Assembly: GCF_003058225.1 (NCBI RefSeq)
Contig: NZ_QBUG01000013.1
Coordinates: 1 to 64,000, forward strand
Source of the DNA: Promicromonospora sp. AC04
GTDB lineage: Bacteria; Actinomycetota; Actinomycetes; Actinomycetales; Cellulomonadaceae
DNA length: 64,000 nucleotides
Direction of reading: 5' to 3'
In this document: one piece after another, positions 59,678 through 62,888 of the stretch
How positions within the stretch are numbered: position 1 is the stretch's first letter
Layout of the letters: each line of letters begins with the position of its first letter
The notes under the pieces: generated by a model
Told to the model about the DNA's origin: nothing
What the model saw: the letters and a program-made list of their open reading frames with translations, nothing else
Database searches by the model: none
Program-made: the position numbers and the translations under genes

Positions 59678-60724
59678 CTATCCTTTGCCCTTTTTCTTCC
59701 TGTTCGACGCCGGACGTGCAGCCTTACCCCGCTGAACACCCCCGCGACCGCCAGCCTTGGCACCGCCGCGTCCCGCTCCGGAGCGCCCCTTGGCCCCTGA
59801 GGACCCGCCCTTCGCCGAGTTCTTCACCCCGGTTCTTGCCGTTTTTCCAGCAGATCTGCCCTCGGACGCGTCCTGAGCCTGCCGGGACGACGGGCCACCC
59901 CGACCGCGTGAGCTGTTGACCGTGCGCCCACGGACGATGCCGATGAGCTCCTCGACCAGGTCGGTGGTGCGGTCGATGGACCAGACCAGACCCACGGGCG
60001 CCGTCGGCCCGTCCACTAGCGGGCGGTAGGTCACGTCCTTACGACGGTGCAGGCGCGCGAGCGACATCGGCAGCACCGCGACCCCTACGTTCGCCGCGAC
60101 GGTCGCGACGGCGTCGGCAGTGGTCGGGACCCGGTCCAGTGGGTGCCCGTCCGGGTCGGCCGGCACGGTGCCCGGGACCGGGTGGGTGGCGAAGAGGACG
60201 TCGTCGGCGGGGACCCAGACGGGGTCCCCTGCGATATCGGCGCTGGACACGGTCTCGTCGTCGGCGAGGGCGGCGAGGAGGTGGTCCCGCGAGAAGCACA
60301 CCACCGACGTCTCCTCGTAGAGCGGGATCGCGGAGAACACGTCCTTGTCCACGGGGAGGCGGCCGATCGCGGCGTCGGCGTCGCCGGCCTCCAGCGCCTG
60401 CTCGATGGCGGCCGCATCGACCTGCACCAGCTCGAGATATACATCGGGCAGCCGCTCGTGCCACACGCTCGCCCACTTCCCCGGCGTCGCGCCCGGCACG
60501 TAGGCCAGGCGGAAGCGCGGGCGATCGTCGTCCTCGTCCGGCACCGGGCCGGCCACGTCCTCGGCCGGCACCGGGCCGGCCACGTCCTCGGCCGGCACCT
60601 CGTCCTCGGCGGGCGGTCGGTCGGCATGCTCGCCGTCCGGTGCGGGCGGTCCGACGTCAGGCGGGCGGTCGGCAGGCTCGCCGTCCGGTGCGGGCGGACC
60701 GACGTCGGGTAGGGGCTGGCTCAC
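59678..60724 (-). CDS. LysR-type effector-domain protein without helix-turn-helix
   Basis: This 348-residue protein has a LysR substrate-binding fold (about 70-255; RFRLAYVPGATPGKWASVWH, DKDVFSAIPLYEETSVVCFS, TVAANVGVAVLPMSLARLH) but no winged helix. Residues 1-68 are acidic with DVGPPAPDGE and AEDVAGPVP repeats. The C-terminal 80 residues are Lys/Arg/Gly/Ser-rich and end in NRKKKGKG, so DNA or RNA contact could be through this basic tail. I recall this type of gene next to DUF5997 in related genomes; here an AbiEi/DUF559 gene stands between them. Confidence 0.82.
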   Translation of the reverse strand: MSQPLPDVGPPAPDGEPADRPPDVGPPAPDGEHADRPPAEDEVPAEDVAGPVPAEDVAGPVPDEDDDRPRFRLAYVPGATPGKWASVWHERLPDVYLELVQVDAAAIEQALEAGDADAAIGRLPVDKDVFSAIPLYEETSVVCFSRDHLLAALADDETVSSADIAGDPVWVPADDVLFATHPVPGTVPADPDGHPLDRVPTTADAVATVAANVGVAVLPMSLARLHRRKDVTYRPLVDGPTAPVGLVWSIDRTTDLVEELIGIVRGRTVNSSRGRGGPSSRQAQDASEGRSAGKTARTGVKNSAKGGSSGAKGRSGAGRGGAKAGGRGGVQRGKAARPASNRKKKGKG

Positions 60725-60860
60725 GTGCCAAGGCTACGGGCCGTGCTCACGCACCGACTCCGGACCCACGCCGAACACCCGCCCAAGACGGAAGCCCCAT
60801 CAGCTCCGCCAGCACGATCAACCGCTGACCGCAGTCTTGGTTGCGCCCCTCGTTGACGAC

Positions 60861-60909
60861 TGCAGACCTGGTTGCGGTTTGAGGGGTCCTAACCGCTACA
60901 AGGTCTGCA
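60861..60909. repeat. stem-loop element, copy A (left of the AbiEi/DUF559 gene)
   Basis: TGCAGACCTGGTTGCGGTT pairs with 60891-60909 with two mismatches around TGAGGGGTCCT. The 18-base run TGGTTGCGGTTTGAGGGG is identical in copy B. Related sequence extends about 40 bases to the left in both copies (CCCTCGTTG, GACTGCAG). Confidence 0.85.
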
Positions 60910-60961
60910 CTGGCGCTGGTGGCCCGCGACCAAGTCTGCGATCGGCGGCATCCCGCTGCCG

Positions 60962-61957
60962 TTACCCGTCGAGGTGCACCACCGGGCCGATGCTTGTGCC
61001 GGGCAACCAGCCGAGCCAGTGGAGCCGTTCCGCCACCTGAAGACCGATATCGCCGTGAGAGCTGTTCCGGGGCGCGGGGAATCGCAGGACGATCACGCGG
61101 TCGGTGCCCACGAGCCCGTTCTGGCGGGTCGCATCGTCCGCGAGCATCTCGTTCCCGGAGTGGAACTCGCGGCCGTCGATCTCGACCACGACATAGCGCC
61201 CGTCGGGGAGGATCCAGGCGAAGTCAACCCGCCCGAGCAACTTGCCGCCCGACCAGAAGGCGACCTGCTGCCCGTCGGGTGGGACCCCGTGGTCGACGAA
61301 CGACAACCGGGCGAACGTCTCAGCCGGCGAGGCGTCCCGACCGGTCACGAGGTCGAGCCAAGGTCGCACCGCGACGACCCCGCGCCGCCCGTGGATCAGC
61401 ATCCGGACTCGTCCGAGGTCTGCTGCGCAGATGCGGTCCTCTCGCAGGGCGTCGCAGATCGACGCCACGGCGTGGTCGCGGGGCAGCGTCAGCAGCCCTT
61501 GGGCCAAGGCGTGCACGAGCTCTGCGACATCGCGCCCGCCATGCTGCACCACCGGAAAGGTGCCGTACCGGCGAAGGACCGTTCCGGGCCGCACCCCGGC
61601 ATCCATCCAGGCCGGTCGCGAAACCTCCGGATCCAGCTCCGATGGCAAGCCGCCCACCCCTAGCAACGCCAGCGCACATCCCCCGGTCGCAACGCCGTCG
61701 GGGTAGGCAAGTAGCCCGATCCACGCTGCCCGACGGCGGACATGGTCGTGAAAGTCGGCGCGGATCCGCTCCTGGACGGGGACCGGGCAGGTGTCGTAGA
61801 CCCCGCGGGTGACCCTGGTCCAGGCCCCAGAACGGACCAGCCGCGCCACCGCATGCTTGCTGAGTCCGGCGGCGGCGCACTGGGAGATACTCACCAGCTC
61901 CTCCTGGCGCGCCGCAAGGGTCCAGATCTCGTCGGGGATTGTCTCGGGATGCCTCAC
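60962..61957 (-). CDS. AbiEi-type winged-helix protein with C-terminal DUF559 (nuclease-like) domain
   Basis: This 331-residue protein starts with an AbiEi-antitoxin-like winged helix (VSISQCAAAGLSKHAVARLV, GAWTRVTRGVYDT) and ends with a DUF559 domain of the Vsr/PD-(D/E)XK type (VDFAWILPDGRYVVVEIDGREFHS), with plausible catalytic D and ExD residues. It occurs alone, without an AbiEii toxin. Such solo proteins are common in actinobacteria and of unknown function. The start at GTG 61957 has no strong ribosome site. It is bracketed by the same-orientation stem-loop copies at 60861 and 62175, so it may be a mobile or inserted cassette. Confidence 0.8.
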   Translation of the reverse strand: MRHPETIPDEIWTLAARQEELVSISQCAAAGLSKHAVARLVRSGAWTRVTRGVYDTCPVPVQERIRADFHDHVRRRAAWIGLLAYPDGVATGGCALALLGVGGLPSELDPEVSRPAWMDAGVRPGTVLRRYGTFPVVQHGGRDVAELVHALAQGLLTLPRDHAVASICDALREDRICAADLGRVRMLIHGRRGVVAVRPWLDLVTGRDASPAETFARLSFVDHGVPPDGQQVAFWSGGKLLGRVDFAWILPDGRYVVVEIDGREFHSGNEMLADDATRQNGLVGTDRVIVLRFPAPRNSSHGDIGLQVAERLHWLGWLPGTSIGPVVHLDG

Positions 61958-62174
61958 ACACGGATCAGAACGTGATCGACGCTGGTGGAGAAGGCCGGGC
62001 GGCTCACCCCTGTGGACAACTGAGGCTGTGGTCGCGCTCGAAGCGTTGTGCCGCCGTGAACCGGGCCGGAGCCTGTTGAGGACTTTCTGCCGAATGGAGT
62101 CGGCCGGCCACGCCACGCCGTCCGGCAGGCTGCCCCCGACGACTGCAGACTTCAACGCGGCCCTCGTTGGCGAG

Positions 62175-62223
62175 TGCAGACTTGGTTGCGGTTTGAGGGG
62201 CCGTAACCGGAACAAGCTCTGCA
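62175..62223. repeat. stem-loop element, copy B (right of the AbiEi/DUF559 gene)
   Basis: TGCAGACTTGGTTGCGGTT pairs with 62205-62223 with four mismatches around TGAGGGGCCGT. It is 1314 bases from copy A in the same orientation. The whole 529-base gap 61958-62486 contains only this element, the 23-bp repeats and a promoter. Confidence 0.85.
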
Positions 62224-62347
62224 GTCGTGAGCCGGCTCGGTTGCTAACTCTGCACTCGGCACCGGGTCCGTCCCTCCGAGCTCATATCGGAGCTGCTGCC
62301 GGTCCAGTTCCCACCAGCCAGTCCCACCACTCCTACCGGTCCAGTCC

Positions 62348-62413
62348 CGTGGGCGACGATCCCGATAGTCCGTGGGCAACGATCCCGATAGTCCGTGGGC
62401 GACGATCCCGACA
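62348..62413. repeat. 23-bp tandem repeat, three units
   Basis: CGTGGGCGACGATCCCGATA (then GTC) repeats at 62348, 62371 and 62394; the last unit is truncated. One base differs in unit 2. It sits between the stem-loop copy and the DUF5997 promoter. Confidence 0.88.
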
Positions 62414-62474
62414 GCGCCGAGCGCGAGCGGCGAGGATCACGCCCGCCATGGAGAGCGCCGCGGGCGCACGCCGA

Positions 62475-62486: not shown

Positions 62487-62888
62487 ATGAATTCCTCCTT
62501 CGCCTCGCAGCGGTTCAAGCCGTCCAACGCCGCCAAGCGACTCGGCGTCTACCTGCCCGCAACACCGCAGGAGTTCCAGGACACCCCGATGACGCGCGCG
62601 GAGCTCGAGGAGCTGGAGACGAACCCGCCCGAGTGGCTGGCCGAGCTGCGCCGCAACGGCCCGCACCCGCGCCCGGTCGTGGCGGGACGCCTCGGCATCT
62701 CGATCGCCGGCCTGGCCCGCGGCGGCATCACCGACCCGCTGACCACCGAGCAGATCAACGAGCTGCGCGAGGACCCGCCGGCGTGGCTGGCTCAGGAGCG
62801 CGAGATCGCCGCACAGGTGCGTGCCGAGGAGGAGCGCGTCGAGGAGGCCCGCAAGGCTGCGGAGAAGAAGGCCCGCTCCGCGCGGTGA
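62487..62888 (+). CDS. DUF5997 family protein
   Basis: This 133-residue protein matches DUF5997: SNAAKRLGVYLPATPQEFQD, PPEWLAELRRNGPHPRPVVA and GISIAGLARGGITDPLTTEQ, with a highly charged C-terminal helix (AEEERVEEARKAAEKKARS). Families like this are predicted to bind DNA through the small helix-turn-helix-like core, but nothing is proven. It overlaps the next methyltransferase gene by 4 bases (GTGA). Confidence 0.85.
   Translation: MNSSFASQRFKPSNAAKRLGVYLPATPQEFQDTPMTRAELEELETNPPEWLAELRRNGPHPRPVVAGRLGISIAGLARGGITDPLTTEQINELREDPPAWLAQEREIAAQVRAEEERVEEARKAAEKKARSAR

Follow-up and report, generated by a model that had tools for sequence, protein, structure and literature searches.

A candidate REPtron-like unit in Promicromonospora: an AbiEi-nuclease fusion gene bracketed by its own dispersed palindrome

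In Promicromonospora sp. AC04 a single gene lies between two copies of a stem-loop, and the question raised by this locus is whether the three form an inserted cassette or a unit of another kind. The window analysed is a stretch of 64,000 nucleotides of contig NZ_QBUG01000013.1, and all coordinates refer to it. An earlier note on this DNA described two copies in the same orientation that share an 18-base run and lie 1314 bases apart. This is correct: the window contains two occurrences of the run (TGGTTGCGGTTTGAGGGG) and no more, at 60869 and 62183 on the same strand, compared with 0.03 expected from shuffles. The run belongs to a longer direct repeat of 88 nt (60822-60909 and 62136-62223, 81% identical) and, at the first copy, also to a nested inverted repeat with arms of 58 nt that are 72% complementary. 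The fold claimed for both copies was recovered as well, with DNA folding better than 200 of 200 shuffles for copy A (z -4.2) and 196 of 200 for copy B (z -2.5). The span that had been proposed, 60861-62223, holds both core copies but cuts off the outer half-sites. According to profile matches the whole elements are about 125 bp each, at approximately 60825-60949 (element A, core hairpin 60861-60909) and 62139-62263 (element B). Each is a palindrome of four half-sites of about 23 nt, two forward followed by two reverse. Searches with the elements found no Rfam family at the gathering threshold, and an RNA family was rejected.

The bracketed gene (60962..61957, minus strand) encodes 331 amino acids from a GTG start codon assigned in this analysis. 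Element A begins about 12 bp past its stop codon and element B lies about 180 bp upstream of its start codon. The outside genes are those named in the note: Pfam identifies a LysR substrate-binding-domain protein (LysR_substrate, 59678..60724, minus strand), a conserved neighbour, and a DUF5997 gene (62487..62888, plus strand), which all 13 genus genomes contain. A 23-bp unit (CCGTGGGCGACGATCCCGATAGT and variants) occurs three times in tandem at 62347-62414, in the gap that separates element B from DUF5997.

The label AbiEi/DUF559 held in its first half. The protein has an AbiEi_4 match (E about 1e-10), with the AbiEi winged-helix antitoxin domain and fold, whereas DUF559 matches its nuclease part less well than PF18741 (MTES_1575), itself below the Pfam cut-off. 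In a structural model this part has a predicted Vsr/EDxHD nuclease fold and appears to resemble a homing endonuclease; its invariant residues are E213, D245, E259, and D261. The gene product is therefore described here as an AbiEi-like two-domain protein fused to a predicted Vsr/EDxHD-fold nuclease. A search of PDB sequences returned nothing at E up to 1 and NCBIfam gave no match. No sign of the suggested defence role was found: at E 1e-10 the protein matched none of 50,697 phage and 72,556 plasmid records, and Pfam detected no AbiEii-type toxin (DUF1814) among the two neighbours at the focal locus. Carriage on mobile elements was rejected on the same zero matches to plasmid and phage records.

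The earlier note interpreted the locus as a one-gene cassette inserted between neighbours described as adjacent in relatives, with the stem-loops as boundaries or recombination substrates. The neighbours are indeed adjacent in relatives, and 8 of the 13 genus genomes have an empty site, with 97-155 bp separating the two genes. The proposed check for an empty site with one stem-loop copy also succeeded, as congener G002 has one whole element there and no gene. The orthologue is found at the corresponding place between DUF5997 and LysR in two other congeners, G011 (73% identical) and G007 (67%). Diverged element copies are found on both sides of it, with a clear profile match in G011 and weak ones in G007 (best E 0.0016 and 0.009). 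G008 retains a gene remnant and half an element. The gene tree, ((G011,G007),G000) with G000 as the genome studied here, agrees with a species tree based on DUF5997 and the gene after it, where G011 and G007 group apart in a clade of their own. Because the gene occupies the same site in a separate clade, left a remnant in G008, and has a tree concordant with that of the species, vertical inheritance with repeated loss fits better than a recent cassette insertion, which is disfavoured. From these comparisons the focal gene is best read as old at this site. The cassette idea was thus right about the conserved neighbours and the empty sites, but a fresh insertion is not what the trees suggest. 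Likewise the stem-loops do flank the gene, but they are not only boundaries: they belong to a dispersed family of their own.

The 13-base head of the focal element (CGASTGCAGASTT) occurs 26 times in this genome, 43 times in G011, 52 in G002, 12 in G007, and 7 in G008, and 0-1 times in the other 145 of the 150 family genomes counted. These five are the genus genomes with a gene or a trace of one at the focal site (7-52 copies vs 0-1 in the remaining eight; p 0.0013, phylogeny ignored). G002 has the highest count yet no gene there. Copies within this genome reach 89% identity at sites with unrelated flanks and copies in different genomes at most 84%, while the medians are equal within and between genomes (0.757 and 0.754). 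The copies lie close behind genes, at a median of 24 bp from a 3' end (21 of 29 within 60 bp). None of the 27 copies with both neighbours called is located between divergent genes, compared with 18 of 79 background gaps (p 0.003; orientations from a crude GC-frame gene call). Among 30 homologue loci from the genus, family, and order, the focal head was detected only at the three site orthologues, but many of the others are flanked by palindromes of a different sequence.

The genome itself contains further examples. Five fusion genes were located in it by protein search, and every one of them lies between matching elements of a family specific to it, which answers the note's question of whether other AbiEi/DUF559-type genes are bracketed. 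For the focal gene and the gene with CGAACG elements, the match between left and right depends less on the palindrome score than on alignment (56 and 28), and in the fifth family the two sides are similar, not identical (alignment 21-23). A wider family profile gave eight matches in the genome, and the flank comparison covers the five located genes. Since three nuclease-less proteins score too low to count among the eight, there are three further relatives. Three AbiEi_4 genes without the nuclease part (180-264 aa) lack such flanking elements, although one of the three shows a flank repeat of 25 nt together with a short, one-sided hairpin. In each own-genome family examined there is one located bracketed gene, and the scattered copies fetched are solo elements.

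The other element families counted are also dispersed. Heads read besides the focal one are TTCAGCAGGC, AAGGTCCGC, and commonly GCCGAAC. Across the 13 genomes of the genus, CGAACG palindromes (CGAACGTAGG) number 0-43 per genome and TTCAGC palindromes (TTCAGCAGGC) 0-15, with zero hits for the reversed-pattern controls. Arms of a fourth family are found 36 times in this genome, 4 times in G002, once each in G001 and G004, and in none of the other nine (control 0-1). As with the focal head, abundance follows the gene: there are 6-15 TTCAGC copies in the six genomes with a matching gene vs 0-4 in the seven without (one-sided p 0.0016), and 8-43 vs 0-9 CGAACG copies in the corresponding six and seven (p 0.0045), phylogeny again being ignored in both values. 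In the protein tree one clade (support 0.999) unites the proteins that have CGAACG elements, and another (1.000) unites those that have TTCAGC elements. Over 88 loci, similarity between elements tracks identity between proteins (r 0.40 vs at most 0.16 in 500 permutations).

Beyond the genus, the family profile matched in 151 of 197 sampled genomes of the class, some perhaps through proteins without the nuclease part. Within 400 bp of the gene a long palindrome was detected on both sides at 38 of 109 homologue loci, on one side at 46, and on neither at 25, whereas none was found at any of the 109 once the flanks had been shuffled. Palindromes are concentrated next to the gene in 80 named loci (Cellulomonas, Cellulosimicrobium, Oerskovia, Isoptericola, Promicromonospora and others): 57 fall in the 200 bp on its plus side as oriented, 32 in those on the other side, 12 in the next 200 bp beyond that side, and 0-4 in every remaining bin. 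Among 79 of these genes (one locus was dropped) a palindrome is present on both sides in 32, on one side in 33, and on neither in 14. The corresponding numbers for 70 control genes in the same loci are 0, 12, and 58, and the flanks of control genes may extend into the target's element, which would lessen the contrast. When left and right flanks were aligned locally, 52 of 77 loci (three were dropped for short flanks) exceeded 38, the top score of 82 control genes. A null of swapped flanks had its 99th percentile at 68, exceeded by 2 of 77, and its 95th at 27, exceeded by 67 of 77. The former is, we think, inflated by shared element types, and control genes were therefore taken as the comparison. 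Some of the highest scores (e.g. L147, L166) come from aligned, long, coding-like stretches and should not be weighed.

The named loci are not independent, as they group into 18 neighbour-sharing clusters, of which 15 have a flanking palindrome at one locus or more and 9 include one or more loci with palindromes on both sides. Three of the clusters contain 53 of the 80 loci (L123-L202), so the genes look stationary; judging from this synteny, the position of the gene on the chromosome seems to be stable, whereas the elements around it diverge. Of 27 usable loci in other families of the class, 14 are flanked by a palindrome (6 on both sides) and 13 have none, at a lower threshold (13), without a shuffle control, and with L242 and L257 left out; some of these palindromes are plain GC-rich hairpins. 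One homologue from another family (L073) has long tandem repeats on both sides, at 1097-1347 and 2441-2817, in place of a simple palindrome. A further family, GAGGCCTAAGTTTCTTCG, brackets genes in several Promicromonospora records (flanks of L149, L153, and L158) and has a relative in congener G003 (L297, 11440-11740). Most tested actinobacterial relatives thus adjoin their own palindromes, and this suggests a previously unrecognised partnership between gene and repeat.

The internal structure of the palindromes gives further information. Their median length is 62 bp (quartiles 56 and 66). Satellite half-sites are found outward at 22 bp in 16 cases and at 29 or 31 bp in 10, and inward in 17 copies at scattered offsets, with 5 control hits in all. 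In a gap-free alignment of 17 copies of the fourth family, 95% of arm cells pair vs 87% when shuffled, and changes on both arms number 43 vs 15.3, with 0 of 500 shuffles as high. A coarser count, of pairs with any both-side change, gives 9 vs 7.2 (51 of 500 shuffles as high). Since the copies are related, these shuffle figures are not probabilities. Segments of 18 bases are identical between the arms in 10 of 15 copies, 7 of them in non-consensus form (shuffle means 2.3 and 1.0). Among 26 unique copies of the CGAACG family inner pairing is 69% vs 58% shuffled (maximum 66%), and the inner stem of TTCAGC (15 copies) has low pairing at many positions. Such covariation suggests that the arms pair with each other, or that one is copied from the other, rather than that they act as two independent duplex half-sites.

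The locus is probably (at roughly 0.6) one member of a widespread two-part unit, made of a stationary AbiEi-nuclease fusion gene and a cognate palindrome that brackets it and is scattered elsewhere, with REP-like processing and copying. In such a unit the AbiEi part would read the half-sites, with a pair of molecules on the palindrome of about 60 bp and more on the satellite half-sites two to three helical turns out. The nuclease part would nick or cut there, probably once a cruciform or hairpin has been extruded from the palindrome, and repair-coupled copying would occasionally deposit new copies, kept mainly just behind genes. The gene itself would stay put and be inherited vertically with its flanking copies, the element of each lineage changing with its protein, and loss would leave a gene remnant (as in G008) or a single element (as in G002). 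The mechanism borrows from published descriptions: AbiEi and Rv2827c are each reported to bind inverted repeats of 23 bp within the promoter of their own gene, with Rv2827c bound as two pairs (PMC7319586), EDxHD enzymes are described as dimers on targets of nearly 60 bp (PMC3943268), close to the median palindrome here, and RAYT genes are described as always flanked by two inverted REPs (PMC2817692). Running counter to it, genomes without a matching gene still have 0-9 CGAACG and 0-4 TTCAGC palindromes.

The closest known system is that of REP/REPIN sequences and RAYT (TnpA_REP) genes, or REPtrons. According to PMC2817692 and PMC8266576 these share with the present unit a gene flanked by two copies of a genome-dispersed palindrome, co-evolved pairs of protein and palindrome, and complementary arm changes. 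The enzymes differ, HUH/Y1 in RAYT and a predicted AbiEi plus Vsr/EDxHD fold here. The palindromes also differ, being longer here and accompanied by satellite half-sites, while REPs are given as 20-40 bp with a GTAG or CGTC tag (PMC3733652). The focal element has no GTAG-type tetranucleotide head at the foot of its hairpin; the CGAACGTAGG family does contain GTAG, but inside the palindrome arm. A search for Y1_Tnp (PF01797) matched in 0 of 13 genomes of the genus at E 0.001, so these genomes have no recognisable RAYT, and RAYT was rejected as the agent. Because the defining HUH Y1 enzyme is not matched, the unit is not a member of REP/RAYT. Nor is it, at the focal locus, an AbiE toxin-antitoxin pair, as the neighbours are LysR_substrate and DUF5997 and not an AbiEii toxin. 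From the AbiEi antitoxins of type IV systems (COG5340) it differs in the nuclease fusion and in having dispersed sites that bracket the gene. In contrast to EDxHD homing endonucleases (I-Bth0305I) and Vsr, the gene here is bracketed by whole palindromes and splits no target, and it is apparently stationary and outside any intron. The unit is best read as a convergent analogue of REP/RAYT, whose nuclease would recognise and probably process its palindromes, and by analogy it may work like a REPtron with an unrelated enzyme.

Other readings account for parts of this evidence. The protein could be an AbiEi-type autoregulator, its palindromes operators, the scattered copies a small regulon, and the nuclease domain occupied with another task. 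The focal half-site is, like the repeats reported for AbiEi and Rv2827c (PMC7319586), about 23 nt long, and element B lies upstream of the start codon. The CGAACG and TTCAGC copies have a weaker preference for 3' ends (5 of 26 between divergent genes, 5 inside a called ORF). However, an operator reading has to accommodate another copy immediately past the stop codon, the lack of such palindromes at the genome's AbiEi genes without a nuclease part, focal-family copies that favour gene 3' ends and avoid divergent gaps, and arm covariation, which independent binding to duplex half-sites does not require. It is considered unlikely.

Recombination between elements is a quite unlikely explanation: the nuclease would cut them, and the gene with its flanks would move into other copies, or be lost, by homologous recombination. 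The concordant trees at the focal site, the single located bracketed gene in each own-genome family with solo copies elsewhere, and the few clusters that hold most named loci all argue against such homing, although it would explain the empty sites, the one-element site, and the remnant, and would suit a nuclease part that resembles a homing endonuclease of a family said to bind nearly 60 bp as a dimer (PMC3943268). It is very unlikely that the gene is a passenger, tolerated between 3'-end structures (terminators or nucleoid sites) that an unknown agent has spread. The scattered copies of two families do lie mostly just behind genes (in the fourth family 12 of 15 are nearer a 3' end), but the protein clades differ in the palindrome sequence that each has, bracketing is not seen for control genes at these loci, and Rfam recognises no family at its gathering threshold.

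To our knowledge, dispersed palindromes with a dedicated enzyme are known only for RAYT transposases. A full-text search of an open-access library found nothing that connects AbiEi, DUF559 or MTES_1575 proteins with dispersed palindromes, although this does not prove that no such link has been published. Chances are about even that this is a second, independently evolved kind of REPtron, in which AbiEi-Vsr/EDxHD nucleases cut their own covarying palindromes as hairpins or cruciforms and in this way maintain and spread them. If so, a gene family labelled orphan antitoxin could in fact process repeats and thereby shape the intergenic regions of actinobacteria. Many genes annotated as AbiEi antitoxins would gain a function from a second enzyme class with the REPtron arrangement, and a large set of actinobacterial intergenic palindromes would be explained. 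Such a class would also supply natural nuclease/target pairs with jointly diverged specificity, small, single-gene, and ready for biochemical testing.

The flanks of individual copies were also inspected. Among 17 recent copies no clear target-site duplication was found (mean flank match 6.8 vs 5.8 shuffled), and general target-site duplication was rejected. The only long flank repeat found is a 31-bp direct repeat around a focal-type element of this genome (L039, 1434-1622; G000:C1 near 483093), which may be a target duplication or a local duplication. In the sister pair G012/G003, an element present in G012 is absent from the orthologous place in G003. At another site both genomes hold the element, and query L301 has no counterpart; around L210 synteny differed in the empty-site comparison. 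One orthologous intergenic site holds palindromes of different families in the two genomes (G012:C30, L299 780-1010; G003:C23, L297 11440-11740), as if it had been reused.
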